From a virus, in IMG/VR virus record IMGVR_UViG_3300028392_000292, positions 1 through 23,437 of that record: DNA of 23,437 nucleotides, one strand, 5' to 3'. The notes below the pieces were generated by a model. That model saw only the letters and a program-made list of their open reading frames with translations. It was not told where the DNA came from and made no database searches. Positions 549-20,989 of the stretch are shown piece after piece (position 1 is the first letter of the stretch; each line of letters begins with the position of its first letter). The position numbers and the translations under genes are program-made.

Positions 549-2296
549 CCAAGGCGCAAACAAAACTCCGCAAAAACGAGAGGGCAAGGTGGCACTACGA
601 AACACCGCCGAGCGTTATCGATTGGGCTGAGAAGCATATCCAATTAGACGCTAGGATCACCGCCCGCCCAGGGCTTTACTCAACCTCATATACGCCGTAC
701 GTGAGGGGCGTGCTCGAGGCGCTGGCCGATCCCGGCGTGCACACCGTGGCGCTGTGTTGGGGGTCGCAAACGGGTAAGACGCTTACCCTGGCGGTGTGGC
801 TTGCGTACAGGATTGCGAACGATCCAGCGCCCGCCCTTCTGGTTATGCCTAACGCGGATCTAGCCCGCTCCTATTCCAAAACTCGGCTAGTGCCAATCTT
901 TGAAAAGTGTAAGCCAGTAAAAGCGCTTTTTCCTTACGACAGCGACGACTTCGCCAATCTTGAAATGCAGTTCAGCACCTGCACTTTGAGTCTTACTGGC
1001 AGTAACAGTCCGGCCAATATTAGCAGCCGTCCTGTGTGCATTGCCGTTTTGGATGAATTGGATAAATTTGCACCGCCAACCGAGCGCGAGTCGTCGGCCG
1101 CGTCCCTTTGCCTTGAGCGTACGAAAGCTTTTCCCGCCCGTAAGCACGTCCTTACCAGTACGCCTACTTTAAGCACGGGCGATATCTGGCAGAACTATAT
1201 GGCGGGGAGTCAGGAACTATTTCACGTCCCTTGCGCTAAGTGCGGAGAGTTTCAAGCGATGGAGTTTGGACGGGTGAAGTGGTCGGACGAAGCGAGGCAA
1301 GAGGACGGCAAGTGGGATCTAAAGAAAGTATCAGACACCGCCCACTACCACTGCACAAAGTGCGACTACGCATGGACCGAAGGGGATAGGCGTGCATCGA
1401 TTGAAAAGGGTAAGTGGGTGGCGGGGAACGAGGGAGCGGAGCCAGGGCGAAGGTCGTTTCGATTGCCGTCTTGGATGTCGCCCACCGTAACCATCGCCGA
1501 CTGTGCTAAGAAATTCCTAACCGAAAAACATTATCTGCACGGGTTGCAAGGATTCGTCAACGGATGGAGCGCAATGCCATGGGAAGACCAGTTCGACGAC
1601 GACAAGAGCGTCGACGTGCCGGCGGGTGCCTTTGCCAAAAAGCAGGCATGGGAAGTGGAACATTTAAAATTGGCGGCCATAGACAGACAGATCGACGGCT
1701 ACTGGTTTGTCGTGCGTGCCTTTGCAAGGGACGGATCGAGCCGCCTGATCGAGGAAGGGCACTGCCGAACCATCGAGGACATCGCCCACACGCTCACAGA
1801 GCTGGGCGTACAGCCAAAGTTTACCGCGATGGATAGCGGATATGAAACGCAGGACTCATATAGAATCTGCGCGAGGTACGGATTCAAAGCACTGAAGGGC
1901 GAGGACCGGCCGTGCTACTGGATTGAAACTCCAAAGGGCCGCATGAAGTCGGTGCATAGCGCAGAGCAGCCGACCGACGCCGGGTGCATGTTGTTACTTG
2001 TGAGCTCGCCGGCCTGCCAAGATCTCCTGGCATGGTTAAGGCGAGGGCAGGGGCCGCGGTGGGAAGTGGCACACGACGTAAGCCCAAACTACAAAGAGCA
2101 TTTATCCAGCCACAAAAAGATCCACCGAGTTAATCGTAAGACAGGACGCGATCTTTACGAATGGGTGCGAATCAAAAGCAGGGCAGACCATTTATACGAT
2201 TGTGAAACCTACCTCTCCGGCTTTGCCGTGTTTGGTAAAATTATTAAGCCCACAGGGTCAATGGATGTAGATTCGTTGACACCTTCAGTGGCTTAA
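545..2296 (+). CDS. Terminase large subunit, GpA family
   Basis: ATP-driven DNA translocase and headful or cos-cutting nuclease that fills the prohead. The 583-residue length suits the lambda GpA family. Visible motifs are Walker A GSQTGKT at residues 73-79, Walker B VCIAVLDE at 164-171, and a zinc ribbon with CxxC pairs at C230/C233 and C270/C273. The C-terminal RNase H-like nuclease begins near LAAIDRQIDG with acidic candidates D380 and D430 (MDSGY). The start is GTG at 545, overlapping the previous stop. The last 20 bases carry TTGACA (2276-2281), which lies 14 bases before the start of the next gene. TAATG joins it to that gene (stop 2294-2296, ATG 2296). Confident family call; cos versus pac packaging cannot be decided here. 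Confidence 0.93.
   Translation: MTKAQTKLRKNERARWHYETPPSVIDWAEKHIQLDARITARPGLYSTSYTPYVRGVLEALADPGVHTVALCWGSQTGKTLTLAVWLAYRIANDPAPALLVMPNADLARSYSKTRLVPIFEKCKPVKALFPYDSDDFANLEMQFSTCTLSLTGSNSPANISSRPVCIAVLDELDKFAPPTERESSAASLCLERTKAFPARKHVLTSTPTLSTGDIWQNYMAGSQELFHVPCAKCGEFQAMEFGRVKWSDEARQEDGKWDLKKVSDTAHYHCTKCDYAWTEGDRRASIEKGKWVAGNEGAEPGRRSFRLPSWMSPTVTIADCAKKFLTEKHYLHGLQGFVNGWSAMPWEDQFDDDKSVDVPAGAFAKKQAWEVEHLKLAAIDRQIDGYWFVVRAFARDGSSRLIEEGHCRTIEDIAHTLTELGVQPKFTAMDSGYETQDSYRICARYGFKALKGEDRPCYWIETPKGRMKSVHSAEQPTDAGCMLLLVSSPACQDLLAWLRRGQGPRWEVAHDVSPNYKEHLSSHKKIHRVNRKTGRDLYEWVRIKSRADHLYDCETYLSGFAVFGKIIKPTGSMDVDSLTPSVA
2276..2295 (+). promoter_or_regulatory. TTGACA start-proximal element before the gpW-like gene
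   Basis: TTGACA at 2276-2281 lies inside the last codons of the terminase gene, with 14 bases between it and the ATG at 2296. No Shine-Dalgarno is seen in that spacer. The spacing is the same as at 4945 and 5386. Confidence 0.5.
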
Positions 2297-4427: not shown

Positions 4428-4943
4428 GTGAGCCGGATATCCTTTGATCCTATTGATGCCGAGCCACAGCAAGTAGCTACCGAATACTATAACGACGGCG
4501 TGGTCACGGTTACTCGTCAGCTTGTTATTCTGGGGCCGCCCTACAACCAAACCTACCCAATCGCAAACCTGCAGGGCGTCCGTTACGCTGAAGATACTAC
4601 CGGCATATTTGGTCGCGTGTTATGGATGTTCCTTAGCGGATTCGGAATCCTTTTTGGATTTGTTCTAATGCTCCAAGTGCATAGCCCGGTTATGGGTGGA
4701 TTTTTTATCTGCGCCTCAATCGCCATCCTTTACAAATGCATTCGCGCTTTTGATAAATGGTACGTTGAGCTGATGCTAGGCGGTTTAAATAATCAAACAC
4801 TTGCCATGAAGAAAAAAGAGGGCGCTGAATATTTAACCTACTGCATTACACGCGCCATGCAAGATCTACACACCCCGCCAGATTCTGGCCAACCAGTTGC
4901 TTACTCTCCAGTGTTTCCAGACCCCGTCCTCACCCGAAACTAA
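4428..4943 (+). CDS. DUF6232-like two-helix membrane protein, possible moron
   Basis: Protein of 171 residues. Residues 18-55 form a beta-rich domain (EYYNDGVVTVTRQLVIL, then YPIANLQGVRY) resembling the DUF6232 pattern, where a short PH-like sheet precedes membrane helices. Two hydrophobic helices follow at about 63-83 and 87-104, then a soluble tail. No known virion role fits, and the gene breaks the usual portal-protease order, so it may be an accessory gene acting in the host inner membrane. The start is GTG at 4428; the purines just before it (AAAGG) touch the start codon and are not a well-placed Shine-Dalgarno. Family resemblance is from memory and function is unknown. Confidence 0.6.
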   Translation: MSRISFDPIDAEPQQVATEYYNDGVVTVTRQLVILGPPYNQTYPIANLQGVRYAEDTTGIFGRVLWMFLSGFGILFGFVLMLQVHSPVMGGFFICASIAILYKCIRAFDKWYVELMLGGLNNQTLAMKKKEGAEYLTYCITRAMQDLHTPPDSGQPVAYSPVFPDPVLTRN

Positions 4944-4944
4944 T

Positions 4945-4964
4945 TTGACACGCCATGCGCGGGC
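4945..4964 (+). promoter_or_regulatory. TTGACA start-proximal element before protease-scaffold gene
   Basis: TTGACA at 4945-4950 begins two bases after the TAA of the previous gene; 14 bases separate it from the ATG at 4965. The start-proximal spacer contains no Shine-Dalgarno and no TATAAT lies 17 bases downstream. Confidence 0.55.
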
Positions 4965-5855
4965 ATGGCCAACAAACTCCCGTCCGTTTCCATTCTCACC
5001 GTAGGCGAGGCTAAAGGCCACGACCTACTCATCGACCAAACCTCCCTCGAACAAGCGCTGGCCGTAGCGCAAACCATGAAGCGGATAAAGGTGACCATGG
5101 GCCACGGCGCCCAGGTCGACGGTATCCTCGGCTACATCGACAGCTTTGTGATTAAAGGCGACCGCCTCATGGGCGATCTTACTTTGTTCAGCACCACCCA
5201 AGCCCAGTTCGTCCAACACCTAGCTCAGGTACTGCCCGAAGGATTTGGCCTGTCCCTCACGTTCAGCGGCGTACCCGCCGAAGTCGGAGCTTATCGCTAC
5301 GCCCGCGTCTCGGAAATCTACGACATCAGCGTCGTTTCCACGCCCGCCGCTAACCCCGCCGGGATGTTTTCTGCCTTCACCGCAGTTGACATCAAAAATC
5401 TACAAATGGAAACATCGCCAGTAGTCGAAAAAATTGAAGCGGCCCCCGTGGTCGAAGTTGTCGTCACCCCCGAAGTCGCGCCCGTTGTGGCTTTGGCCGA
5501 AGCGCCTGTTGTCACGCCTACCGCACCCGTCGAAGTCAAAGCCGCTGAGCCCACCTTGGCCGATGTTGTCGCCATGCTCACCGAACTGCTCGTCCTCGCC
5601 AAAGCGGATAACGCCGCTGAAGGCGTTGCAGAGCCCGCCATGGATATGGCCAAAAAAGAAGGCTACGCCATGAGCGCCGTCATCGACGAAAAAACTGTCA
5701 TCACTCTAGAAAAAGCGAAGACCGATTCTGCAGGTGCGGAACCGATCCCAGCTGAATCCGCCCAGCCGGTTGGCCGCGGTGAGATCCTAAACCAATTCAA
5801 CCAGGAGAAAGACGATTCCAAACGAATCAAGCTTCTCCGCAAATTAGGTCTGTAA
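4965..5855 (+). CDS. Prohead protease fused to scaffold domain
   Basis: Protein of 296 residues with two parts. Residues 1-147 look like a herpes/HK97-type capsid protease: conserved-looking GHGA with H47, GFGLSLTFSG with S97 (or S101) as likely nucleophile, and the closing VVSTPAANPAGMF that such proteases often carry. Residues 148-296 are low-complexity Val/Ala/Pro/Glu followed by charged helices, ending in a basic tail (KRIKLLRKLGL). That is typical of a scaffold whose C-terminus binds the capsid protein. It lies directly before the major capsid gene. An internal ATG at residue 148 may express the scaffold alone. The fold assignment is fairly firm; the catalytic residues are inferred. Confidence 0.75.
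   Translation: MANKLPSVSILTVGEAKGHDLLIDQTSLEQALAVAQTMKRIKVTMGHGAQVDGILGYIDSFVIKGDRLMGDLTLFSTTQAQFVQHLAQVLPEGFGLSLTFSGVPAEVGAYRYARVSEIYDISVVSTPAANPAGMFSAFTAVDIKNLQMETSPVVEKIEAAPVVEVVVTPEVAPVVALAEAPVVTPTAPVEVKAAEPTLADVVAMLTELLVLAKADNAAEGVAEPAMDMAKKEGYAMSAVIDEKTVITLEKAKTDSAGAEPIPAESAQPVGRGEILNQFNQEKDDSKRIKLLRKLGL
5386..5405 (+). promoter_or_regulatory. Internal TTGACA element before scaffold ATG
   Basis: TTGACA at 5386-5391 is inside the protease-scaffold reading frame and is followed, after exactly 14 bases, by the in-frame ATG at 5406. The spacing equals that at 2276 and 4945. The spacer is A-rich, which should leave the site accessible in RNA. Confidence 0.45.
5406..5855 (+). CDS. Predicted separately initiated scaffold protein (nested, in frame)
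   Basis: In-frame ATG at residue 148 of the protease gene gives a 149-residue product starting METSPVVEKIEAAP. It lies just after the end of the protease domain and contains all of the scaffold-like region. The TTGACA-N14-ATGG element before it is the same as that before the full-length gene. In lambda and many relatives a scaffold (Nu3) is made from an internal start inside the protease gene C, giving excess scaffold over protease. That precedent and the motif are the basis; expression is not shown. Confidence 0.5.
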   Translation: METSPVVEKIEAAPVVEVVVTPEVAPVVALAEAPVVTPTAPVEVKAAEPTLADVVAMLTELLVLAKADNAAEGVAEPAMDMAKKEGYAMSAVIDEKTVITLEKAKTDSAGAEPIPAESAQPVGRGEILNQFNQEKDDSKRIKLLRKLGL

Positions 5856-5883: not shown

Positions 5884-6774
5884 ATGGCAAATACACTCGG
5901 CACAACCAATGCAAACGTAATCGCGCAGAGGGCGTTAGAAATCCTCGTAGCCGATTATTCGTTTTTGCGAAGCGGAGTTTCTAATTTTTCCAGCGATGCT
6001 GCGAAATACGGAGCTTCAATCTATACGTCCCGCCTCTCTGCTCTCACGGCTGCTGATTATAGCCAGAGCACTGGTTACGCGGGATCAGCGATCACCCAGA
6101 CGGATGTCGCGATCACGCTAAATAAGTTCAAACACGTCACCTACTCGGTGGACGATCAAGAACGTACCAGCTCAAACATCAATTTGATCGAGCGTTTCGC
6201 AGGTGCGGCCGCTCATGCGATCGGGTTGCAGATGGTGGGCGACTTGCTCACCCTCGTAACTTCTTCGACGTTCACCAACGCGATCACCGTTGCTTCCACC
6301 GCGTTTAACTATCGCTCGGTAGTGTCTGCAGGTGCAGTGCTCAACTCGCTAAACTCGCCCGTCAACGGCCGCTACTGCGTGTTGGCGCCTTTGTTCTACG
6401 GTGCACTGATGAATGATACCACGGTCGTGGCGAATCCTCAGATCACTGGGGACATCGTTCGTGGCGGCGGAATCGGCAAAGTGGCCGGATTCGACGTGAA
6501 CCAGTATAGCGCAATTCCTAGCAACGGAATCACCTTAGGTGGTTTTTTCGGGCAACAGGAATCACTGCTCATTGCGGCCCGCGTCCCTGAAGTGCCAACT
6601 ACTGTGATGATTCCTGGCGACATCTCGGTGGTTACCGAACCCCGCACAGGACTGAGTTTACAGGTGCGAGAGGCATATAACATGTCCCTCGGAACGCTCA
6701 GCAGAACCTACGCCTTGATCTACGGCGTGAAAGCTGGGGAGCCCAACAGTCTCGTACGTATCAACGGAGCCTAA
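5884..6774 (+). CDS. Major capsid protein
   Basis: Protein of 296 residues after the protease-scaffold gene, the standard place for the capsid subunit. HK97-fold features are suggested by the long amphipathic region (NLIERFAGAAAHAIGLQMVG), then an Ala/Ser/Thr-rich A-domain with VANPQITGDIVRGGGIGKVA and GFDVNQYSAIP, and the closing PRTGLSLQVREAYN. AGGA at 5870-5873 lies 10 bases before the ATG, in an A/C-rich unstructured leader that favours strong translation. The leader shares ACCTAAAGAAA with 6820-6830 and AGGAACCAAA with 17721-17730. A strong hairpin follows the stop. Position and motifs make this a firm call. Confidence 0.88.
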   Translation: MANTLGTTNANVIAQRALEILVADYSFLRSGVSNFSSDAAKYGASIYTSRLSALTAADYSQSTGYAGSAITQTDVAITLNKFKHVTYSVDDQERTSSNINLIERFAGAAAHAIGLQMVGDLLTLVTSSTFTNAITVASTAFNYRSVVSAGAVLNSLNSPVNGRYCVLAPLFYGALMNDTTVVANPQITGDIVRGGGIGKVAGFDVNQYSAIPSNGITLGGFFGQQESLLIAARVPEVPTTVMIPGDISVVTEPRTGLSLQVREAYNMSLGTLSRTYALIYGVKAGEPNSLVRINGA

Positions 6775-7149: not shown

Positions 7150-8841
7150 ATGGCACCCCGAAATCCTCCTAAAATATCGGTCTACTTTATCGCAGGCCAT
7201 GAGGCCCAGTTCATCGGTCGTGCCATGGCCGCCTTCCGTCCTTTCTGTAGCGAGATCATCGTGGCACTCGCCCAGGGTAACCGGCCGGACGACGGCACCC
7301 GCGAGATTGCTGAGAAAGCAGGCGCCACCGTCATCACCTACCACAACTCAGGCACCGCCGCAGATTGGCCTCACGTCGATAACTTTGCCCACGCACGTAA
7401 CTGCGCATTAAATGCGTGCACTGGGGACTACGCCGTCTGGTTCGATTGCGATGATCTACCCGCCACAGACCTCGATAAATGCTTCACAAGGGCCGTGGAA
7501 GCGTTTGAAAAAGATTCAGCCCTGGGGATCTATGCAGGCGTGTACGCCGTTTTAAACGCCAAACTCAACCCAGTACGCGAGAGGATGGTCCGAAGATTGC
7601 CGGGTGGCGGTTGGTCCGGCACTTGGCACTACGCCGTCCATGAAGCACTCCTGCCGATCGCTGGGCTGAAATCCGTAGGGGAGCAGAACGTCTGGTGCGA
7701 ACACCACTGCGGCGGATACAAGCCCAACAGCGCAGACCGCAACCTCCGCATCCTAGGCGGCGAACTCAGCCAGGCGGGCAAGTACGCTTACTACTACCAG
7801 CAGGAACTATTCTTAGGTAACAAGCGCAACGAGAGCGGCGTCTGGTCCCGCGTTGCCGCCTACTGGCCTAAGCAGGAACCCACCCTGCAATACGAAGCCA
7901 TGTGCAACTATGCGGCCGCCCACCCCGATCGTGATACCCGGATGAAACTTTACGGCGAGGCGCACCAGCTCCAGCCCGGCCGGAGGGAAGCACTTTACTA
8001 CATTGCCCGCGAGGAAGCGTCCGTGGGCAGGTGGGGCGCCGTGTACTACATGTTAAAGGCGGCCATGGTCCAGCCCGATCCTGGCATCTCGATTTGGAAC
8101 TGCCAGCGCTCGATCTACGACTTCGAGTGCATCGACCTTTATATCTGCGCCGCCCGCATGACCGGCGACACGGCAGAAGTAGCCAAGATCGAAACCGCCT
8201 GGCGCAAGCAGTGCCCCGTTAAAATTTCCATCCTTCACGCCACCCGCGGCCGTCCGCAGGAGGCGATTAACGCCCGCGTCCTCTGGATGAAGAAAGCGTC
8301 TGCCCCGCAAAACATAGAATGGCTTTTTGCTTGTGATAACGACGACCCAACCGCCGCCGTCCTCAAACCGTGGAACCCCGTCATGGGCGAGGGAAGCTGC
8401 GTAGCCGCATGGAACAGGGCGGCCGCCAAAGCCCAGGGCGATATCCTTATCCAAGCTAGCGACGATTGGGACCCACCGCTGTATTGGGACACCATTGTGA
8501 CCGAACGCCTAGGCGATCTCAGTAAGCCCAAAGTCCTAGCAATCTCCGACGGGCACCGCACCGACGAACTCCTTTGCATGGCCATTTTAACAAAAGCTCG
8601 GCTTATCCAGCAGAGCTCACTTTTTGCGAATGAATACGACGCCTGCTCGGGCATCTTTAGCGATAACGAATTTAGCCACCGGGCAATCAAAGACGGCGTC
8701 ATCGTCCAGGCGAAAGACGTCGTCTTTACTCACAACAATCCGCTTTTCACGGGTGCAGTGCAGGATGCGGAATTTAAAAAGCATAACGCACAAGAAAACT
8801 ACGTCCTGGGCGAAAAGATATTTAAGGAGCGCAACCCGTGA
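7150..8841 (+). CDS. Double-domain GT2-type glycosyltransferase
   Basis: Protein of 563 residues. Residues 8-115 form a GT-A family 2 domain, starting KISVYFIAGHEAQFI with a DxD-like DCDD at 99-102. A middle part around 245-330 is rich in Tyr and Ala helices and resembles TPR repeats. A second GT2-like domain starts near residue 358 (KISILHATRGRP) with DNDD at 396-399 and SDDWDPP near 437-443, the acidic sites that would bind Mn and the nucleotide sugar. No membrane helix or signal peptide is seen, so it should be cytoplasmic. It lies between head and tail genes with a methyltransferase and another glycosyltransferase. The substrate is unknown; a virion protein is plausible. AAGGAG near its end serves the next gene. 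Confidence 0.85.
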   Translation: MAPRNPPKISVYFIAGHEAQFIGRAMAAFRPFCSEIIVALAQGNRPDDGTREIAEKAGATVITYHNSGTAADWPHVDNFAHARNCALNACTGDYAVWFDCDDLPATDLDKCFTRAVEAFEKDSALGIYAGVYAVLNAKLNPVRERMVRRLPGGGWSGTWHYAVHEALLPIAGLKSVGEQNVWCEHHCGGYKPNSADRNLRILGGELSQAGKYAYYYQQELFLGNKRNESGVWSRVAAYWPKQEPTLQYEAMCNYAAAHPDRDTRMKLYGEAHQLQPGRREALYYIAREEASVGRWGAVYYMLKAAMVQPDPGISIWNCQRSIYDFECIDLYICAARMTGDTAEVAKIETAWRKQCPVKISILHATRGRPQEAINARVLWMKKASAPQNIEWLFACDNDDPTAAVLKPWNPVMGEGSCVAAWNRAAAKAQGDILIQASDDWDPPLYWDTIVTERLGDLSKPKVLAISDGHRTDELLCMAILTKARLIQQSSLFANEYDACSGIFSDNEFSHRAIKDGVIVQAKDVVFTHNNPLFTGAVQDAEFKKHNAQENYVLGEKIFKERNP

Positions 8842-9323
8842 TCTTTGAATACAAAGGCCAACTCTATCCAGATTACATTAGAAACGGCAACGCCTGCTCG
8901 CACGTTTTGCCTTTTGCCCAGCAGTTTTGCCATGGCGATGGCCTAGACATCGGAGGGACAAAGGATTGGTCTTTGCCAGGAGCAAAAATAATTAACATCG
9001 ATCAGGCCAACGGATATGACGCTCTCAATTTACCCGACGAAAAATATGATTTTGTCTTCTCATCTCACACCCTTGAACACGTTGAAAAATACGTTCAAGC
9101 CCTAGAACACTGGAAGACAAGGCTAAAGCCCGGCGGAGTCTTGTTTATGTATTTGCCTCATCCAGACATGGAATACTGGCGGCCACAAAATAATCGCAAG
9201 CATGCTCACCTATTCCACCCAGAGGACATGACCAAGACGCTGGCGGATCTGGGATTTGAAAACATTCTATGTAGCGGCCGCGATCTTTATTGGAGTTTTG
9301 CCATCGTAGGATTCAACCATTAA
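8838..9323 (+). CDS. SAM-dependent methyltransferase (class I)
   Basis: Protein of 161 residues with Rossmann-type methyltransferase signs: motif I GLDIGG near residues 35-40, acidic end of strand 2 (INIDQ), then YDFVFSSHTLEHV, typical of Methyltransf_11, and LKPGGVLFMYLPH. The set of motifs is complete but the protein is short, so a substrate domain is minimal. The start is GTG at 8838, overlapping the previous stop (GTGA) with a good AAGGAG at 8823-8828. Its place between two glycosyltransferases suggests it methylates a sugar or glycan. The target is unknown. Confidence 0.85.
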   Translation: MIFEYKGQLYPDYIRNGNACSHVLPFAQQFCHGDGLDIGGTKDWSLPGAKIINIDQANGYDALNLPDEKYDFVFSSHTLEHVEKYVQALEHWKTRLKPGGVLFMYLPHPDMEYWRPQNNRKHAHLFHPEDMTKTLADLGFENILCSGRDLYWSFAIVGFNH

Positions 9324-9987
9324 AACAATCGTCTATCATCAGCGCCTTGGGGATATTATTAACTGCTTTCCGGCGGCTCTACACTTTGCCAAGCAGGGGG
9401 AGGAAGTGTTTGTTGAATGTTTGCCGCAGTATTCGTCAGCGCTAAATCTTATCAGCTACGCAAAATGGGTCGCACCTGGGGAAGGGGAGGGGGAGATCTT
9501 AGACTTTCAGATATGGCCAAAACGTTACAATGAATATCGGAACAGCGGGAAACCCTACGTGGATTTTCTCTACGACCATCCCGCACTGCACGGGGTAGAT
9601 AGGCAGATCCTACTTGATTGCGTGCCAGACGAGCCGCCGCCTGGTTTACCTGATCAGTACAACCTCCTAGCGCCTATGGGTATCAGCCTAGCGTGGAATT
9701 ACCCCACCTTAGATATCCAAATTAAGGCGGAAGAGCTGATGCGCGATTACATCATAATGTGCGAAAAACAGTACTACTTCCACAGGCGTCATTGGACAGC
9801 GGACAACGTAGTCCAAATGGCTCAGGCGATTAAACACGCGGATAAGTTTATGACGATTAACTCGGCTCCGGCCGTACTGGCCTCCGCCTTGCGTCAGAAT
9901 CGCCCAACATTCTTCCTTCCTCAAAAACAACAGTGGGCACAAGACAACATCGCACCGTGGCCTGGGCGCGTTGACGTGGAGCTATAA
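9319..9987 (+). CDS. Glycosyltransferase-like protein, probable ATT start
   Basis: The ATG/GTG-based frame starts at 9406, but the same frame is open and protein-like upstream from 9319: KTIVYHQRLGDIINCFPAAL, a normal N-terminus for heptosyltransferase/GT-B-like proteins that begin with a beta strand and a GD-containing loop. The codon before it is ATT (9319-9321), overlapping the previous stop as ATTAA, with AGGA at 9308-9311 seven bases upstream. The predicted length is 222 residues. No ATG, GTG or TTG lies between the in-frame stop at 9307-9309 and the GTG at 9406. The C-terminus ends in a region with NSAPAVLASALRQNRPTFF, like the donor-side loop of GT-B enzymes that recover a glycan chain. 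Specific function unknown. Confidence 0.65.
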   Translation: MKTIVYHQRLGDIINCFPAALHFAKQGEEVFVECLPQYSSALNLISYAKWVAPGEGEGEILDFQIWPKRYNEYRNSGKPYVDFLYDHPALHGVDRQILLDCVPDEPPPGLPDQYNLLAPMGISLAWNYPTLDIQIKAEELMRDYIIMCEKQYYFHRRHWTADNVVQMAQAIKHADKFMTINSAPAVLASALRQNRPTFFLPQKQQWAQDNIAPWPGRVDVEL

Positions 9988-9990: not shown

Positions 9991-10437
9991 ATGGCCGCCG
10001 TCACCATGCTTGATCGTTTAATCGAAGCCGCTTTTAAAGAGCTGATCTCGCCCGTAGTTACCGCACCTACCTACCACCTTTCCCACGATGCCACAGAGAA
10101 TGTCCCGCCTTCCATAGTCATTAAGGCGACAATGGGCTCAGAGGAGCCCGTCAGAGGCAGTGGCGTATTTAGCCTGCCCGTAGAAATTATCTTCACAGAG
10201 AGGCAAGACGACGTCACCACCTCTTCCCACAGCGCTCAGTGTAGCCAGATCCTGCAGTGCTTCTATGACGCGACTAATCTCTCAGCTAGGCTTAATGCCA
10301 CCACTGCCATCGGCTTAGCCCGCACATACAGCGCCAAGCTAGAATCCAGCGAGGCAAACGCAGAAAACGAGGAGCGTACTATCGGCCAAACCTACAAGCT
10401 CACCGTCATTGCCTATCCCGGTTCCATTGCGAGTTGA
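9991..10437 (+). CDS. Tail completion or minor tail protein (probable)
   Basis: Protein of 148 residues placed just before the tail tube gene, where lambda-like phages encode gpZ/gpU-type tail completion proteins. The N-terminal helix (MLDRLIEAAFKEL) is followed by a beta-rich domain including SLPVEIIFTERQDD and a closing strand (YKLTVIAYPG). This is the overall pattern of tail terminators that cap the tail tube. The final TGA (10435-10437) lies within the TTGACA of the next gene. No close motif is known to me, so the call rests on order and size. Confidence 0.5.
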   Translation: MAAVTMLDRLIEAAFKELISPVVTAPTYHLSHDATENVPPSIVIKATMGSEEPVRGSGVFSLPVEIIFTERQDDVTTSSHSAQCSQILQCFYDATNLSARLNATTAIGLARTYSAKLESSEANAENEERTIGQTYKLTVIAYPGSIAS

Positions 10438-10455
10438 CACGTACTTTAGGGCAAT
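10434..10455 (+). promoter_or_regulatory. TTGACA start-proximal element before the tail tube gene
   Basis: TTGACA at 10434-10439 contains the TGA stop of the upstream gene and lies 16 bases before the ATG at 10456. A stop embedded in the element could allow a terminating ribosome to restart. Confidence 0.5.
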
Positions 10456-10842: not shown

Positions 10843-11220
10843 ATGGAAAGCTTCTGGGGTACAACTAACTTGAAAGTAGCGGCCGCCGCTACCGCCTTCG
10901 GCGCCACCCTACGCCAGCTCGATCCCGTCACTTGTATTGTAAAGGAGGGCGGCCAACGTCAGGTCACCTTCTGGTTCAGCTCCTCCGGCCCCGACGGCGA
11001 CGAGGCCCGTGCCGAAATGGAACGCACCTGGGGCGAAATGAAGTCTGACAAAGAATCCGCCATCCGCTTTGTTCGCGCCGCGCTTGAGAATCGCGAAACC
11101 CTCTTAGGATTGGTTAAACGAGCCGAGCCTATTCTTTCCATCCAACGGGGTGGGCAAACACTGCTAGTGCCAGAAAAAGCCCGTCCTGAGCTTAAGCGTG
11201 CCCTTTTAAACAAACTATGA
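10843..11220 (+). CDS. Small tail-region protein resembling DUF5659
   Basis: Protein of 125 residues before the G/G-T chaperone genes. The N-terminal half resembles DUF5659-type phage proteins: a helix with AAATAFGATLRQL, then RQVTFWFSSSGPDG, where the last strand is the usual close of that small domain. The second half is helical and charged (RAEMERTWGEMKS). The role is unknown, but position suggests tail assembly. It shares the GAAATCCTC leader (10826-10834) with the gene at 6841. It overlaps the next gene by four bases (ATGA, 11217-11220). Confidence 0.5.
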   Translation: MESFWGTTNLKVAAAATAFGATLRQLDPVTCIVKEGGQRQVTFWFSSSGPDGDEARAEMERTWGEMKSDKESAIRFVRAALENRETLLGLVKRAEPILSIQRGGQTLLVPEKARPELKRALLNKL

Positions 11221-11600
11221 GCGACAACCTCGAGCAAGATCTGGACGAGGCGTTTATCGCCCCAGACACATTCTTTAAAGGGGAGAAACTGGCGCCATAT
11301 ACCGAAGGCAGCCGCCTGCTCATGCTTCAGGTAAGGGACGAGGCGGACAGCGCCATCTACTTCGTCTGGTCATTCGTCTACATCCACATCCTGCTCGCCC
11401 AGGATAGGCGGGCCGCCATTAAGCTGGCGTGGGATCGGGACGCCTTTCGCGAAAAGCTTCTGGATTGGTCGGAGAATATGACAGAGGAGGATCGGACGAC
11501 AGCCTCTCTAGTCTGCTCCTCCGTGCTTGGGGTCGCCAACAAAGCCCGCGTGAACGTTATCCCCGGCGCCTTGGCCGAGGCCGCACCCCCAAACGCCTAG
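11217..11600 (+). CDS. Tail assembly chaperone, G-like
   Basis: Protein of 127 residues just before the tape measure region. The acidic N-terminus (LEQDLDEAFIAPDTFF) and helical core fit tail assembly chaperones that hold the tape measure. The reading frame stops at TAG 11598-11600, just after the slippery heptamer C_CCA_AAC. The -1 frame continues to 11803, giving a longer G-T fusion. The start is ATG at 11217, overlapping the previous stop. A two-gene frameshift arrangement at this place is characteristic of lambda-like phages, which supports the assignment. Confidence 0.72.
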   Translation: MSDNLEQDLDEAFIAPDTFFKGEKLAPYTEGSRLLMLQVRDEADSAIYFVWSFVYIHILLAQDRRAAIKLAWDRDAFREKLLDWSENMTEEDRTTASLVCSSVLGVANKARVNVIPGALAEAAPPNA

Positions 11601-11803
11601 CGCCAGGGGGGAGCGCCGCGTGCGTCTTCGTCCTGGCTAAGGAAACTGGATGGTCCATTGAAAAAATCTTATGGGAAATACCTCTCAGCCAAGTTCACCA
11701 GGCGGAACACGTCTTCTTGTATATGAACGGCGCCAAGCTCAGGCGGGCAAATTATATCGGTGGCTCAGATATTCGTGACATGGAAAGGTTGTTAGGATTA
11801 TGA
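11217..11803 (+). CDS. G-T tail assembly chaperone fusion by -1 frameshift
   Basis: If ribosomes slip at 11588-11594, reading continues from 11594 in the -1 frame to TGA 11801-11803. The product is about 195 residues: 126 from the G frame plus 69 from the T frame. The T part (ETGWSIEKILWEIPLSQVHQ then NGAKLRRANYIGG) has no start codon of its own with a sensible leader; an ATG at 11429 opens a frame whose first part is out-of-frame shadow of G. Lambda-like phages use exactly this G/G-T ratio to guide tail assembly. The T stop overlaps the next ATG (11800). Confidence 0.65.
11588..11637 (+). other. Predicted -1 programmed frameshift site with downstream stem
   Basis: Heptamer C_CCA_AAC at 11588-11594 in the zero frame fits X_XXY_YYZ (CCC, AAA, C) and lies one codon before the TAG. 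Seven bases later GCCAGG (11602-11607) pairs with CCTGGC (11632-11637). Both features and the spacing match a -1 slippery site with a stimulatory stem-loop. The long loop may hold an inner GC-rich pairing. Confidence 0.6.
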
Positions 11804-12663
11804 GCGCAACATTTACCGTAGATGCCACCAAACTAGAAAGAGCGCTTAAAGCTTTCATCGGAAATACTAAACTGGAAGCAGGTAAGGAGATGAAGGTGCA
11901 GGCTCGCAACCTTTGCCTAAGTCTAGCAAAAGGCACCCAACCGTTTGGCCTTGATTCGGGAGCAAAGAAACAAGGGGAACAGGCAGTGGCCCGCGATATC
12001 GGGCGAGTCTACAAATCAGTCGCCGGCGCCAGCGTGGGTATATCTAAACTAGCTACAGGCGGTGGTAAGACCGCATCTCAAAACGCCGCACAAGCAGGCC
12101 GCGCTTTTGCCGCTTTGGTAAATTCTAAATTTACAGGTAAAGGGAAAAAGAAGCGCACCATGGCTGCCCGCAGCCAAGCGCAGGAACTGCTTAACCGCAT
12201 TAACTCCGCGCCCTTTATCCACACCCAGCTAGGCCCGTTTGACGGTGGCAAAGCTCACACCGCCGCCAGATTTGGTAAACGCAAAAGCGTGCCAAAAAAT
12301 CAGTTTGTTGGTCTTGTCGTAGACAAATCCAGCGATCTTAAAAAATACTATAAAGAAAAGACGAGTCATGTCGGCATAATGAAAAGCGGCTGGTCTTCCT
12401 GCGCCAAGCTTTTGGGTGGCCTAAAGGGATTCCCCGCGTGGGTTACCCGCCATGGCGGGGGAGGAACGGTAGACGATCAGAGCTCTAAGGCCGTCGGCGC
12501 CTTCTCAAAGCCCTACGTTAAAATAACAAACAAGATCCCCGGCATCGGTAACGCCATCAGCGATAGAACGATCCAACATTCCATTGACATCCAACTCGTA
12601 AAGATGATGAAGCGCCTAGGGATTATTGCAGACTACGAGCGCAAAAAAGCAGGCTTTGCCTAA
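11800..12663 (+). CDS. Unknown tail-region protein before tape measure
   Basis: Protein of 287 residues, basic and Lys/Ala rich, lying between the chaperones and the tape measure. It starts with a short charged helix region (TKLERALKAFIGNTKLEAGK), has a central KGKKKRTMAARSQAQELLNR, and ends with helical IDIQLVKMMKRLGIIADY. I do not recognise a family. Position would suit a minor tail or virion assembly protein. The ATG overlaps the T-frame stop (ATGA). A TTGACA lies near its 3' end (12584), 14 bases before an in-frame ATGATG, but this seems unlikely to make a useful product. Confidence 0.6.
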   Translation: MSATFTVDATKLERALKAFIGNTKLEAGKEMKVQARNLCLSLAKGTQPFGLDSGAKKQGEQAVARDIGRVYKSVAGASVGISKLATGGGKTASQNAAQAGRAFAALVNSKFTGKGKKKRTMAARSQAQELLNRINSAPFIHTQLGPFDGGKAHTAARFGKRKSVPKNQFVGLVVDKSSDLKKYYKEKTSHVGIMKSGWSSCAKLLGGLKGFPAWVTRHGGGGTVDDQSSKAVGAFSKPYVKITNKIPGIGNAISDRTIQHSIDIQLVKMMKRLGIIADYERKKAGFA

Positions 12664-12665
12664 AG

Positions 12666-14135
12666 ATGGACGCCGTCGCAACTGCCAAACTAGCCCTCGA
12701 CGCATCCGGCATGGATCGCGGCCTGCAGAGCGCCAGCGCTAGCTTAGATAAATTCGCTAAGCAGGCGGGATCTGCCCTGGTCGGCGCTTTTGCCATGGAT
12801 AAAATCATCGGCGGATTTAGCACCGCCATTGAGAAGGGCGATCAGTTGCAAGATCTAGCCAATCGTTTTGGCGTGTCCGCCGTTTCCATTCAAGAGATAG
12901 GAAATGCAGCTAGCCTAAGTGGCGCAGGGGTAGAGGACGTGGCGGCGGCTATGAACAAGCTTTCCAAAAACGCAGGGGAGGCCATCGGCGGCAACGAAAC
13001 CATGGCCGAATCGTTTGCGAAAATTGGCCTTAGTGTGGACGACCTAAAGACAATGAGCCCAGAGGATCTCTTTATGTCGCTGAGTAAGGCTATGGCCAGC
13101 GGTACAATCCCAGAGACAGAACAGCTCGCAGTCGCTTCAGATATTGCAGGCAAAAGCATAGGAGCCTTAATGGAAACTCTGCGCATGGGGCCAGAGGCCA
13201 TCTCCGCCAACGGGCAAGCGATGGGAGTGTGGTCTGCGGAAACAATTTCGTCACTTTCCGATGCAAGTGACGCCATAAAAACTTTTCAGAACGAAATGAC
13301 CAAAGGATTTGGTTATGTTGCACAGGCGGCTACGCCATTACTTACCGCATTTAAAGCCATCACCGAGGAGATAACCGTCATGGGCATGGCTGCCTTAGAG
13401 TTTATGAAGGGGAACTTTCAAATAGCAAAAGACCTAGTGAAGCTTGCTGGTAATAGTTCGTACAGCGGGGAAGCGACTTCTGTTGAGAAAAAAAACTCTG
13501 AGAAAAGGGCAGCAGCGGCGAAGGCTAGCGATGCAGGCAACGTTTCCAAAACTGATGCCAAGAGCATCGCCACCGCAGAAAAAGACGCCATCAAAGATCG
13601 TACTGATGAGGCCATGCGCATCCTCAAAAACGAGGAGAGCGAAAAGAAGCTGGCTAACGATAGCTACGAACGGGATCGCGCCCGTGCCACCGAACGCCTG
13701 CTCGAGGCCGCCAACATTGAAGTGCAGGCGGCTATGGAGAAACAGAAGCAAAGCAAAGGCGAGGGCGCAGTTGGCCCAGGCGGAACGTCTCGCCAGTACG
13801 ACCAAGCAAAAGGCACAGCCGCAGGCGAAACCCTTAACTTTGCCAGCGGCCTAGGGGACAGCGGAATTTCAAACACAGTTGCCAGAGAACGCGCCAAGGC
13901 CGCCAAAGACCAGCAGGAGATAAATAAAAAAGAGTTTGATGCTAAGGTAATGGAAAGTACCTCAGCCACGGCCGGTGGCGGTCCGCGCACTATGGCCAGC
14001 CGTCGTCAGGAGTTTATTAAGTCAGAAGCAGGCAAAGAAGCTAAAGGCCAAAAGACCCTATCAGACGTCTACACCGTGCTGGATGAAGCGCTACGAACCC
14101 TACTAAAAGCGCCCATTGTAGGTTCAGGAGCTTAA
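12666..14135 (+). CDS. Tape measure protein
   Basis: Protein of 489 residues, Ala/Ser/Lys rich and largely helical, placed after the chaperones. It starts with AKLALDASGMDRGLQSAS, typical of tape measure N-termini that pack as coiled coils, and has a hydrophobic region around residues 210-250 (FGYVAQAATPLLTAFKAITE, VMGMAALEF). The charged repeats that follow (AEKDAIKDRTDEAMRILKNE) are coiled-coil-like. At 1.5 angstrom per residue it predicts a tail of about 70 nm, short for a siphovirus. There is no muramidase or peptidase domain that I can see. Confidence 0.82.
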   Translation: MDAVATAKLALDASGMDRGLQSASASLDKFAKQAGSALVGAFAMDKIIGGFSTAIEKGDQLQDLANRFGVSAVSIQEIGNAASLSGAGVEDVAAAMNKLSKNAGEAIGGNETMAESFAKIGLSVDDLKTMSPEDLFMSLSKAMASGTIPETEQLAVASDIAGKSIGALMETLRMGPEAISANGQAMGVWSAETISSLSDASDAIKTFQNEMTKGFGYVAQAATPLLTAFKAITEEITVMGMAALEFMKGNFQIAKDLVKLAGNSSYSGEATSVEKKNSEKRAAAAKASDAGNVSKTDAKSIATAEKDAIKDRTDEAMRILKNEESEKKLANDSYERDRARATERLLEAANIEVQAAMEKQKQSKGEGAVGPGGTSRQYDQAKGTAAGETLNFASGLGDSGISNTVARERAKAAKDQQEINKKEFDAKVMESTSATAGGGPRTMASRRQEFIKSEAGKEAKGQKTLSDVYTVLDEALRTLLKAPIVGSGA

Positions 14136-14136
14136 T

Positions 14137-14733
14137 ATGCCCTCCGCCACCATCATCGGCTCTCCGTCCTCAGGAGCTAAAACTCTGCGCCGTGTAGACT
14201 ATGGTACCGAGCGCAACGGCCTAGAAACCCTTACGGAAACCTACACCATCCGCACCTCCGATCGTGCCAGCATCCAGCCGGCTTTCCTTACTACTCATCG
14301 CAACTTCAGCGCCAGCTCTACCAAATACGATCGCATGGCCATAGAAAACTTTTCTTTTCGTGCGCAAGATGGCGACATCTCGGAACTCAGCGTCACCTAC
14401 GTCGGCCTTACCTCAGCCGCGGGCTTGCCCGGAGCCTTGGTAAGAATTGTTCCTACGCCAGGCGCAGGGATTAGAGGGCCAAACGCCGTTATCCAGGCGG
14501 AATATCTTTCTACTCAAACCGAGAGCGAGCTGGTTTTGCAAACTACCGGCACCACCGTCATGCCCACATCAATAAATGGAACGCTCATGCCAGCAAATTT
14601 TCCCTTCAGCACAAACCAAAACAACAGCTACACCTACTACGGCTACACCTTTGCCAGCATAGAATCCGTCCGTCGTGGTCAGTTTCTCGTTCTTACCGCC
14701 GTGTTTAAAGAATACTCAATTTCCATAGGCTGA
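14137..14733 (+). CDS. Tail protein, unknown (distal tail position)
   Basis: Protein of 198 residues, beta-rich and Ser/Thr rich, directly after the tape measure. Distal tail and baseplate proteins usually lie here. Stretches such as ETYTIRTSDRASIQPAFL and NFSFRAQDGDISELSVTYVG suggest beta sandwich modules. No specific family is recognised. It starts at ATG 14137 one base after the previous stop. Confidence 0.5.
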   Translation: MPSATIIGSPSSGAKTLRRVDYGTERNGLETLTETYTIRTSDRASIQPAFLTTHRNFSASSTKYDRMAIENFSFRAQDGDISELSVTYVGLTSAAGLPGALVRIVPTPGAGIRGPNAVIQAEYLSTQTESELVLQTTGTTVMPTSINGTLMPANFPFSTNQNNSYTYYGYTFASIESVRRGQFLVLTAVFKEYSISIG

Positions 14734-14735
14734 TC

Positions 14736-14990
14736 ATGGCTTTTGTACCAAAACTCAAGCTACTAGAAGGAAAATCCCGCCTTGCCTTGGGCTTTTTCAA
14801 CAGCCTAATCAATCGCATTGAGTGCACTAAGCCTATCGAGGGTGATGGCATTTTAATCACCGAGGAGCCCGACGGGTCCGGCTTTACGATAATGCTAGAC
14901 GCTAACAACATCGTCACCCTCAACGTTTGCAGTAACGGCGTACCCGACACCATAGACGTCTACGTCTCGCCTCCAGCTCCGCCCGCCTAG
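14736..14990 (+). CDS. Small tail-tip protein, unknown
   Basis: Protein of 84 residues with helix LALGFFNSLINRIECTK then a beta hairpin (GILITEEPDGSGFTIML), ending in Pro-rich VSPPAPPA. It lies between the distal tail gene and a 343-residue tail protein. Function unknown; small neck or hub components are often of this kind. Its stop TAG (14988-14990) is followed by the TTGACA at 14994. Confidence 0.5.
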   Translation: MAFVPKLKLLEGKSRLALGFFNSLINRIECTKPIEGDGILITEEPDGSGFTIMLDANNIVTLNVCSNGVPDTIDVYVSPPAPPA

Positions 14991-14993
14991 CCT

Positions 14994-15019
14994 TTGACAA
15001 TGAGCACCCAGAAACAACC
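14994..15019 (+). promoter_or_regulatory. TTGACA start-proximal element with 20-base spacer and mini-ORF
   Basis: TTGACA at 14994-14999 is 20 bases before the ATG at 15020, longer than in the other cases. An ATG at 15000 opens a seven-codon frame (MSTQKQP) that ends in TGA at 15021-15023, overlapping the ATG of the main gene. A leader peptide coupled to the gene is possible. Confidence 0.35.
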
Positions 15020-16051
15020 ATGAGCCTAGACATCCTCATCGACAGCAAAGCGGGCACACTTATCGCGGGAGGATCAGCTCCTTTTGGCACGCTTCCTACA
15101 CTCACTCGGAACGACACCTATACCATTCGCGTCCGGCCCCAAGAGAAGGTGGCCAACCTATATCGCGACACCACCTTTACCTCTCCAAGCTTTAAATTTG
15201 GCCTAGGCTTTTTAGATCTCGAACCTACTGCAGGCAGCTTTAAGCTTAGCACCACCACCGGCACCTCTGGCGACATCGCCTACAATGCCAGTACGGCCGC
15301 CATCCTCACCGCCGTCTCAGGGATCGCGGGCAACGTCACCGTGGCCACCTTTGGCGGCGACGGCTCCGCCTGGCTGATCACCGCCGCCACTGCCAATACC
15401 GCCCTCAGCTTTAGCGGATCTAGCTTTACCCTGTTCCCACCCTGCGACGTCCTAATCGGTACCCGCCTAAACTACGCGTCGGGCGTCTGCGCTCAGGTCA
15501 CGGTGGCCTTGCATCGTTCGCCCGCCGTCTATTCGGACAGCTTTGCCGTCAGCTCTACCGCTGGACAGATGGCGCTAAGCCTAGTCAATAACGGGTCGGT
15601 CACTTTTAACGAAACCTACCAGCTCGCAGTTGGCCCAGATGTAGATTCAGGCACATTTGTTTTGAAGTACGGCGTTACTGCTACCACCGCTATTTTAATC
15701 GGCACAGGCGTAGCCAGCTTTACGTCTGCCCTCGAGGGCATCACCGCTATCTCCACGGGTAACATTGCCGTGTCCGTGGCGGCAGATCGCTCCACCTATA
15801 ACATCAGCTTCGTCGGCGCCCTTGGGTACACCAACATCACCACCGTACTTACCCTGGACGCCACCAACGTGGTTTATGGTAAGTACTATCAAAGTGTAGT
15901 GACCATGGCGACGGCCTCCATCGACCAGCTCTTCACCGAAACGACCGAGAATTTTATCGAACCACTTTTAGAAATTCAGATTGTCGATAGTGGCACCACC
16001 TACACCGCCCTTCAAAGCTCCTGCAGGCTGCGTCGCGATTTAATCGTTTAA
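15020..16051 (+). CDS. Tail protein with duplicated beta module
   Basis: Protein of 343 residues, Ser/Thr/Ala rich. A similar module seems to occur twice: residues about 75-140 (GSFKLSTTTGTSGDIAYNAS, then AAILTAVSGI) and about 210-280 (GTFVLKYGVTATTAILIGTG, then ALEGITA). Both open with G-x-F-x-L and continue with a Thr-rich loop, a helix with AxSGI/EGI, and strands. This looks like a repeated carbohydrate-binding or structural sandwich, as in tail tip and fibre proteins. The C-terminus is shorter and beta-rich. The ATG at 15020 overlaps a mini-ORF stop. Function is not known. Confidence 0.6.
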   Translation: MSLDILIDSKAGTLIAGGSAPFGTLPTLTRNDTYTIRVRPQEKVANLYRDTTFTSPSFKFGLGFLDLEPTAGSFKLSTTTGTSGDIAYNASTAAILTAVSGIAGNVTVATFGGDGSAWLITAATANTALSFSGSSFTLFPPCDVLIGTRLNYASGVCAQVTVALHRSPAVYSDSFAVSSTAGQMALSLVNNGSVTFNETYQLAVGPDVDSGTFVLKYGVTATTAILIGTGVASFTSALEGITAISTGNIAVSVAADRSTYNISFVGALGYTNITTVLTLDATNVVYGKYYQSVVTMATASIDQLFTETTENFIEPLLEIQIVDSGTTYTALQSSCRLRRDLIV

Positions 16052-16079
16052 CTCTGGGCAGTAGCCCAAGCAAGATCCT

Positions 16080-16736
16080 ATGGCTTTTCTCTTTGCAAAA
16101 TCGTTTCCTTTTTGCGTTGCAGAAAGTGCTTTGGCAACTGGGAGCGGCACCAAGTACCCATTCGCAATGTCCCTTAAGGACGTAATGAGCTTATTTTGGA
16201 AGTTTGAATCATTTTCTTTGACTGGAAATTATTCACTCTCTTTTGAGTGGGGGACACCTGCATCAACAAAAACAGTTAACGACTCATATAGCGCTACCAT
16301 TAGCACGGAATTTATTTCATTTTGGCCTCATAAAATGAGCGACATGATTTGTCCCGTCGATTATGTTGGATATCCATTATTTTATGGATTCTGTAATGGA
16401 TTTGGGACTAGCTACGGAACGGGCGGACCGTATTCAACCAACACACTTCTGGATCTTAATATATTTAGGCAAGACCCATATCCAGTAATTAAAAAGGGTG
16501 AGCTTTTTTACCCGAATATTTACATAGGGATAAGCACGGATCTTGAGTACAGCGCTGAATACAGCTCAATCTTTCCAAACGGAAGTTATATAGCCGCACC
16601 CAATATGTTTAAGATAACTATTAATGGAAACGATTATTTAAGTGACTTTTACGCTACTGCAGACAGTCCCGCTTCATTCAACTCATTTAGCGGACAGCTC
16701 GCGTTTTCTGTGCAAAATGAAAAACTTGCTGAATGA
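16080..16736 (+). CDS. Unknown aromatic-rich protein in AT-rich island
   Basis: Protein of 218 residues, unusually rich in Phe, Tyr, Ser and Trp (AFLFAKSFPFCV, FWKFESFSLTGNYSLSFEWG). No domain recognised and no clear lipobox; the N-terminus has a hydrophobic start but no obvious cleavage site. The DNA is AT-rich compared with its neighbours: 60-base samples at 16201 and 16321 have 23 G+C each, versus 41 at 15301. That suggests recent transfer. It overlaps the next gene by 20 bases and they may work as a pair. It could be a fibre or surface protein or an accessory gene. Weak hairpin TGGGC/GCCCA (16055-16068) lies before it. Confidence 0.5.
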   Translation: MAFLFAKSFPFCVAESALATGSGTKYPFAMSLKDVMSLFWKFESFSLTGNYSLSFEWGTPASTKTVNDSYSATISTEFISFWPHKMSDMICPVDYVGYPLFYGFCNGFGTSYGTGGPYSTNTLLDLNIFRQDPYPVIKKGELFYPNIYIGISTDLEYSAEYSSIFPNGSYIAAPNMFKITINGNDYLSDFYATADSPASFNSFSGQLAFSVQNEKLAE

Positions 16737-17232
16737 AATAGTGCAATCGGGTGGGATATTGTGTGGCGGCTTTGTGCGTGATTACTTGATTCGAGGAGGA
16801 CAATTTAACGACATAGATTTTTTTTTCAAAAAAGATTGGCCAGAACCATTTCAATCGTGGGAACGAATCCGGACTGTTAAGGGAAACGAAACAGCTCAAA
16901 AAATATTTAATGGTGTTAAGTATCATTGCTTAATAGTTGAAAGCACCGACCTTAGCTCGAATGTATTTTGTTTTGACGGAATAAAACTATATCCTCGCCC
17001 CTTGGTTGCCCCCATAGACTATGTGCAATCATTCCGTTTTATTTTTGAAAATAAGTACACACTGCAAGTTCCATCATTAAAGAATCTACGCCTAGAGGCC
17101 AAGCTTAAGAAAAAAGGATGGGAAAGGGCAGGCATTGTATATGTTTCGTCTGATATTGCAACACCCCCTACCGTCGGCCCTTGGTCAGATTTTACCCTGG
17201 CAAAGGAAAGGTTTGATGCTGTAGCCCTTTGA
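16717..17232 (+). CDS. Nucleotidyltransferase-fold protein (poly(A)-polymerase-like)
   Basis: Protein of 171 residues from ATG 16717; earlier in-frame starts such as 16642 are less likely because they overlap the upstream gene more deeply. Residues 17-24 read GGFVRDYL, then about ten residues later NDIDFFF (D32, D34): the GG-x-VRD...DxD pattern of the tRNA nucleotidyltransferase/poly(A) polymerase head domain, where the aspartates bind metal and ATP or CTP. The remaining protein is short, without the usual RNA-binding arms, so it may modify a protein, a tRNA or a small molecule. It is AT-rich like its partner. Its TGA (17230-17232) is in the next TTGACA. Unusual among tail genes. Confidence 0.65.
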   Translation: MKNLLNEIVQSGGILCGGFVRDYLIRGGQFNDIDFFFKKDWPEPFQSWERIRTVKGNETAQKIFNGVKYHCLIVESTDLSSNVFCFDGIKLYPRPLVAPIDYVQSFRFIFENKYTLQVPSLKNLRLEAKLKKKGWERAGIVYVSSDIATPPTVGPWSDFTLAKERFDAVAL

Positions 17233-17247
17233 CACCCACCGCCCAGA
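17229..17247 (+). promoter_or_regulatory. TTGACA start-proximal element before BppU-like gene
   Basis: TTGACA at 17229-17234 includes the TGA stop of the previous gene and is 13 bases before the ATG at 17248. The spacer (CCCACCGCCCAGA) has no Shine-Dalgarno core. Confidence 0.5.
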
Positions 17248-20970: not shown

Positions 20971-20989
20971 TTGACACCCCGCTAGGGGT
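20971..20989 (+). promoter_or_regulatory. TTGACA start-proximal element before the 57-residue membrane gene
   Basis: TTGACA at 20971-20976 is 13 bases before ATG 20990. The preceding CTTTGATC (20961-20968) repeats part of the element ten bases earlier and holds the TGA stop of the upstream gene. Confidence 0.5.

Follow-up and report, generated by a model that had tools for sequence, protein, structure and literature searches.

In phage Mu and in the herpesviruses (UL26/UL26.5) the capsid scaffold is nested within the protease gene, and herpesvirus UL26.5 has a transcript of its own. Phages lambda and P2 likewise encode protease and scaffold in one gene (PMC8508860), the lambda scaffold being Nu3 (PMC3224144). 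Sequences repeated in one orientation at gene starts have been described in the Cluster K mycobacteriophages as start-associated sequences (SAS and ESAS; PMC3203893).

The locus described here belongs to a freshwater phage, IMG/VR record IMGVR_UViG_3300028392_000292, of which we analysed a stretch of 23,437 nt (the window). As in lambda C/Nu3, the predicted protease and scaffold share a gene and a reading frame, the inner start falls where the protease domain ends, and the capsid gene comes next, giving lambda's gene order of protease, scaffold and capsid. It differs from lambda in that each start bears the hexamer TTGACA and in that the protease is not of the lambda C type. The likeness to Nu3 drawn in an earlier note on this DNA holds for the arrangement and not for the signal. 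The nested arrangement is already known; the TTGACA signal is the new part, no account of a TTGACA at about −20 having turned up in a literature search of limited extent that covered open papers.

Like TTGACA, the SAS of Cluster K is short and non-palindromic, occurs in many copies, nearly all in one orientation, and lies upstream of mostly ATG starts; both are conserved gene by gene, and the role of both is unproven. The SAS is a 13-bp sequence (GGGATAGGAGCCC) with a Shine-Dalgarno core, located 3–7 bp from the start of non-structural genes, whereas TTGACA spans 6 bp, contains no Shine-Dalgarno core, stands 13–16 bp from the start of structural and late genes, and does not match the SAS sequence.

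Results

Two starts in the protease-scaffold gene

The gene that immediately precedes the major capsid gene probably encodes two in-frame products, each from a start with its own TTGACA element (Table 1). ATG 4965 would give the full protease-scaffold fusion, and ATG 5406 (M148) a shorter protein in the same frame that consists of scaffold only. Both elements lie where the earlier note had placed them, each followed by 14 bases (N14) and an ATG, and the inner ATG is indeed codon 148 of the full gene ((5406−4965)/3 = 147 codons in). We infer the use of M148, as well as the mode of action of the element, from comparative evidence; a nested scaffold start arranged as in lambda C/Nu3 is very likely.

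Table 1. Predicted features of the protease-scaffold locus and TTGACA-type elements in the window (Nx, x bases between the hexamer and the ATG)
Feature	Position	Strand	Remarks
TTGACA, small gene after terminase (2296-2592)	2276..2281	+	TTGACA in 53/53 orthologues
TTGACA of full protease-scaffold gene	4945..4950	+	N14 to ATG 4965
Protease-scaffold gene, 296 aa	4965..5855	+	Directly upstream of major capsid gene
Capsid-maturation protease domain (modelled), residues 1-147	4965..5405	+	Fold class herpes assemblin/T4 gp21/HK97
Internal TTGACA	5386..5391	+	N14 to ATG 5406 (M148)
Putative nested scaffold ORF, 149 aa, from M148	5406..5855	+	In frame with ORF 4965-5855
Major capsid protein	5884..6774	+	PHROG 283, E 4e-27; no TTGACA (0/42 orthologues)
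TTGACG variant	9971..9976	+	N14 to ATG 9991; orthologues TTGACG 19, GTGACA 21, TTGACA 1
TTGACA	10434..10439	+	N16 to ATG 10456, probable major tail protein; 40/40 orthologues
TTGACA near end of gene 11800	12584..12589	+	N14 to in-frame ATG 12604
TTGACA	14994..14999	+	N20 to ATG 15020; 17/18 orthologues, mostly N13-15
TTGACA	17229..17234	+	N13 to ATG 17248; 3/3 orthologues
TTGACA	20971..20976	+	N13 to ATG 20990 (57 aa ORF to 21163); 3/3 orthologues

The earlier note had judged this pattern hard to see as an accident, and the counts bear this out. The window contains four copies of TTGACA-N14-ATG, where 0.15 are expected from dinucleotide shuffles; none of 100 shuffles reached four. All eight copies of TTGACA in the window lie on the + strand, and seven have an ATG at N13-16 (background 5%, P = 6e-9); by the fraction of copies linked to a start, TTGACA ranks first among the 1,781 hexamers tested in the window. 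The shuffles and the hexamer ranking together rule out a chance origin of the link between TTGACA and ATG.

For the protein encoded by this gene, Pfam gave no match and PHROG gave marginal ones only, and its protease part matched none of the sequences of solved structures. An AlphaFold2 model built from 11 homologues, of moderate quality (mean pLDDT 58), shows a folded first part, with pLDDT falling below 50 from residue 149, right past M148, which agrees with the domain boundary proposed in the note. Beyond M148 lie a low-complexity, disordered linker and then helices at residues 198–215, 271–280 and 284–293. Foldseek matched the modelled protease to T4 gp21 (probability 1.00), to the KSHV protease and to numerous prohead proteases of viruses, with weak E-values against the PDB (best 0.005) and good ones against a viral library (5e-7). 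H47 and S97 are invariant among the homologues, which fits a capsid-maturation protease, and may be its catalytic residues. The N-terminal part is thus modelled as a capsid-maturation protease of the herpes/T4/HK97-type fold, the fold class of herpes assemblin and T4 gp21; with no Pfam match and an assemblin-like fold, it is not a protease of the lambda C (ClpP/S49-like) type. A membrane-like, 171-aa protein is encoded at 4428–4943, inserted between the portal and protease genes; its match to DUF6232 falls below threshold.

Conservation of the nested start

The earlier note had asked for the inner ATG and its motif to be sought in homologues, the lack of both counting against the nested start; both are kept, so that this check does not refute it. 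Among 80 homologues from IMG/VR (60–92% identity) and the window itself, TTGACA-N14-ATG is present inside the gene in 81/81 sequences. Every homologue with upstream DNA also retains TTGACA or TTGACG before the full gene, and in the 62 unique orthologous upstream regions TTGAC[AG] stands at N13-15 in all 62 (TTGACA in 55, TTGACG in 7). Across 74 unique sequences GTT is the only codon used for V141 and GAC the only one for D142, although the codons of both residues vary elsewhere in the gene; Q147 and M148 are invariant among the homologues. Among the 95 conserved, degenerate columns of the protease part, codon invariance is confined to two (A2 and K4). A second cluster of invariant codons lies near the 3' end of the gene (247–279), so that codon invariance is not by itself unique to the TTGACA site; its combination with the motif is. 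The divergent homologue L024 reads V-D-T-F-S-K-P-Q-M, with TTGACA at N17.

In all relatives the start of the protease gene itself lies within a perfect or near-perfect dyad (window 4945–4985; L084, L092, L098, L053), which differs in sequence, being GCCATGC/GCATGGC in the window and GTTGGCC/GGCCAAC elsewhere.

The element at other late genes

Beyond the protease-scaffold pair, the two copies named in the earlier note, the element marks the starts at 2296, 9991 (as TTGACG), 10456, 12604, 15020, 17248 and 20990. With TTGACA linked to starts across some nine late genes, the signal is not specific to the protease-scaffold pair. This was assessed by a census of orthologues, which replaced raw k-mer enrichment over the clade because the latter was inflated by homologous copies; in the census TTGACA was practically absent at the terminase, portal, capsid and other starts. 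Sixteen longer records (23–35 kb) each carry 6–10 copies of TTGACA-N12-16-ATG on one strand and none on the other. The half-genome L269 contains integrase, exonuclease and primase genes, and no start-linked TTGACA was found in its early part.

The element at 12584 lies 76 nt before ATG 12666 of the probable tape measure gene. TTGACA is kept upstream of this gene in 42/42 cases, with an ATG at N14 in 29 and none in 13 divergent versions. The divergent version of gene 11800 (25–36% identical) has TTGACA in the same place, with the codons CTT-GAC-AT kept and no N14 ATG; in such versions the hexamer stands 70–76 nt upstream of the next gene. In most relatives the ATG at N14 of this element opens a minigene, about 19 codons long, that runs up to the start of the tape measure gene. 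ORFs 11217–11600 and 11429–11803, located two genes before the probable tape measure gene, overlap in different frames (window 11217–11803), which is the arrangement of a G/GT-like programmed frameshift.

Properties of the element

TTGACA is the −35 hexamer of sigma-70 promoters. In the window clade (window, L003-L134), no −10 hexamer was found 16–18 bp downstream of it and upstream of the start codon, nor any AT-rich box there, and no second conserved box upstream of TTGACA. With only 13–16 bp to the ATG and no −10, a sigma-70 promoter of normal geometry could not start transcription at or before the ATG, and such a promoter was rejected. In sigma-54 (−24/−12) elements the GG is not known to vary; this candidate was dropped on inspection, since GA stands where GG is expected and there is no GC box. 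The early-gene proteins that were scanned revealed neither a phage RNA polymerase nor a sigma factor.

Starts with TTGACA pair more weakly with the Shine-Dalgarno partner than other starts (−2.2 vs −4.5 kcal/mol, P = 0.008). Over the 4–12 bases before it, the scaffold start pairs with CCUCC at −0.7 kcal/mol and does not qualify as a Shine-Dalgarno start, while the major capsid start has a Shine-Dalgarno-like site (−6.7 kcal/mol). Stray copies of TTGACA are avoided on both strands, with 11 sense copies lacking an ATG against 59 expected and 5 antisense copies against 39, and TGTCA is the third most depleted 5-mer, after GGWCC. This avoidance is partly present in the unrelated L168 type of phages (see below) and absent in phages with spacers of N28-35. 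In coding regions of the window clade, GGWCC, CAATTG, AGGCCT, TTCGAA and CATATG are depleted 5–20 fold, as if host restriction were being avoided.

TTGACA and nested scaffolds in other phages

A second, unrelated phage group (the L168 type, 34 contigs) shows a sharp TTGACA-ATG peak at N13-15, and part of the family resembling Verrucomicrobia phage P8625 shows a peak at N13-20. The capsid protein of P8625 is distantly related (30%), and the protease gene of that phage is of the Clp type; in two P8625-like relatives (L157 and L158) the protease is CLP_protease by Pfam (E 7e-26). TTGACA followed by an in-frame ATG stands at the end of the Clp domain in L152-L156 and L157/L312 (N29), L158/L165 (N17) and L159/L160 (N20), and the ATG opens a coiled-coil scaffold of 149–175 codons. 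L317 encodes its scaffold in a separate gene, which carries TTGACA-N15-ATG. At the corresponding internal boundary TTGACA is absent in P8625, L142, L145 and L162, so the nested signal is not universal in the P8625-like family; TTGACG-N14-ATG also arises within the ClpP domain of several relatives as a look-alike from coding sequence. By their predicted gene products, these relatives show that the nested scaffold recurs with two unrelated capsid-protease folds. The spacers of the nested sites are all N = 2 modulo 3 (14, 17, 20, 29), so that the hexamer is read xTT-GAC-Axx.

In other P8625-like phages TTGACA lies 28–35 bases upstream of the ATG with an AT-rich box at about −13 to −9, for example TTGACA-N14-TATAAT-N8-ATG in L162 and TTGACA-N17-TATCAT-N8-ATG in L368. 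Such spacing is that of a sigma-70 promoter whose transcripts begin with the ATG, so that the mRNA would be leaderless. Some of these sites precede orthologues of genes that have short spacers in sister phages; the gene whose product starts MRA[FL]... has N30 in P8625, N33 in L321 and N16 in L318, L332 and L333. Shortening of N28-35 to about N14 by an mRNA hairpin holds for a few sites and is not general (mean z −0.38). These putative leaderless promoters share with the window the hexamer, its occurrence once per late gene and some of the genes that it precedes (for example the nested scaffold and the small gene that follows the terminase); they differ in that TTGACA lies about 35 bases upstream with an AT-rich −10, against about 20 bases and no −10 in the window. 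A dyad, GTATCC-N7-GGATAC, is repeated between TTGACA and ATG at several late genes of P8625-like phages (L002 5412–5450 and 10736–10774; L321 4528–4569 and 9929–9967), with CTAAC/GTTAG instead in L157; these dyads are possibly operators of a late regulator.

Host and lineage

Distant matches of the capsid and portal proteins to P8625, and of the portal protein to Akkermansia phage Moulinsart, suggest a verrucomicrobial kinship. No relatives of the capsid protein were found among genome contigs, and a search of plasmids with the integrase gave no match. A terminase profile search returned distant prophages only, plus one phage contig (L168) binned with a betaproteobacterium, whose genome contains 40 copies of TTGACA-N14-ATG in 3.6 Mb, about the chance expectation. 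L168 also encodes, after its portal gene, a 764-aa protein (14074–16368) that combines a zeta-toxin-like kinase domain with a weak PARP-like match.

In L269 a tyrosine integrase gene (8578–9720) adjoins a sequence resembling a tRNA 3' end (GTGGGTTCAAATCCCACCCCGTCCGA) at 9750–9795, which is a probable attP. The integrase and this attP-like site indicate that the window clade is temperate, and a match to the site might reveal the host.

Discussion

Our tentative reading is that TTGACA, standing by itself some 20 bases ahead of the ATG, is a novel start signal of late genes in tailed phages, sufficient alone, read by a host or phage factor, present in at least three lineages, and able to cut a scaffold from protease genes of two folds. 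A hexamer that is sufficient alone would be purged elsewhere on both strands. With its own late-gene element at each start, the scaffold would be made independently of the protease and presumably in excess over it. Whether the element is read in DNA or in mRNA is where the observations pull in different directions: avoidance on both strands and the tape measure site favour a reading in DNA, while the absence of a −10 and the narrow range of distances to the ATG favour a reading in mRNA. The element may, somewhat short of an even chance, be a late promoter at which transcription starts at or just before the ATG, yielding leaderless or very-short-leader mRNAs and giving the scaffold a transcript of its own, as for herpesvirus UL26.5. 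The avoidance of antisense as well as sense copies, the persistence of the tail-gene site in versions that lack the N14 ATG, the Shine-Dalgarno-poor starts and the putative −35/−10 leaderless promoters of related phages, some of them before the same genes, all speak for it. It is weighed slightly above a signal to the ribosome mainly because the hexamer is the −35 consensus and precedes genes that in related phages have putative leaderless promoters. The ribosome signal, a rather doubtful account, would have UUGACA at −20 to −15 of the mRNA recruit the ribosome in place of a Shine-Dalgarno sequence at late starts, the scaffold included, through a factor of the host or of the phage, or by base pairing to an extended 16S rRNA tail. 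It would explain the fixed distance to the ATG (N13-16, rarely to N20), the orientation in gene sense only, the poor Shine-Dalgarno pairing and the missing −10; some Verrucomicrobia are reported to be Shine-Dalgarno-scarce (PMC10783764), and a 16S tail longer than CCUCCUU would, geometrically, overlie these bases. Equally strong avoidance in antisense is not expected from ribosomes, however, the tape measure element is kept where there is no ATG at N14, and the element is confined to late genes. Moreover, no GTCAA follows CCTCC in 200 Pseudomonadota genomes, a group that may not be the host's. Pattern matches in viral contigs to an extended 16S tail complementary to TTGACA proved on inspection to be chance and not rRNA.

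The remaining explanations deny the internal hexamer a role at M148. It is improbable that it serves as a promoter or protein-binding site for the downstream capsid gene, with the scaffold released by cleavage of the fusion. The tape measure element, 70–76 nt upstream of its gene and able to dispense with the ATG at N14, offers a precedent, and the capsid gene begins at most 30 nt past the scaffold stop and has its own Shine-Dalgarno-like site; but M148 is invariant and coincides with the domain boundary, unrelated proteases again have an in-frame ATG at the usual distance, and the standalone scaffold gene of L317 has TTGACA as well. Far less credible still is a site mainly for restriction or methylation, kept in one orientation and otherwise avoided. 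Phage T7 keeps type III sites in one orientation, and such a site would match both the depletion on both strands with the remaining copies in one orientation and the depletion of GGWCC and several palindromes, but it leaves the fixed distance to the ATG and the gene-by-gene conservation unexplained. The least probable account is that the internal TTGACA and M148 simply follow from conservation of the protein (A-V-D-[IM]-K-x-L-Q-M) and do not act as a signal. Near the site the residues V, D, L, Q and M are indeed conserved, and look-alikes can arise in coding regions, yet GTT and GAC are used in every unique sequence, the F-D, L-D and V-D contexts of other phages all spell TTGACA, and TTGACA is the top start-linked hexamer genome-wide.

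The proposed start signal gives a testable rule, namely that TTGACA-N13-16-ATG predicts true late starts in these phages without a Shine-Dalgarno sequence, including starts hidden within other genes. If the element is a promoter, it breaks the usual −35/−10 geometry; if it acts in mRNA, it would be a ribosome signal outside the known kinds. The predicted nested scaffold is also seen with two unrelated capsid-protease folds.
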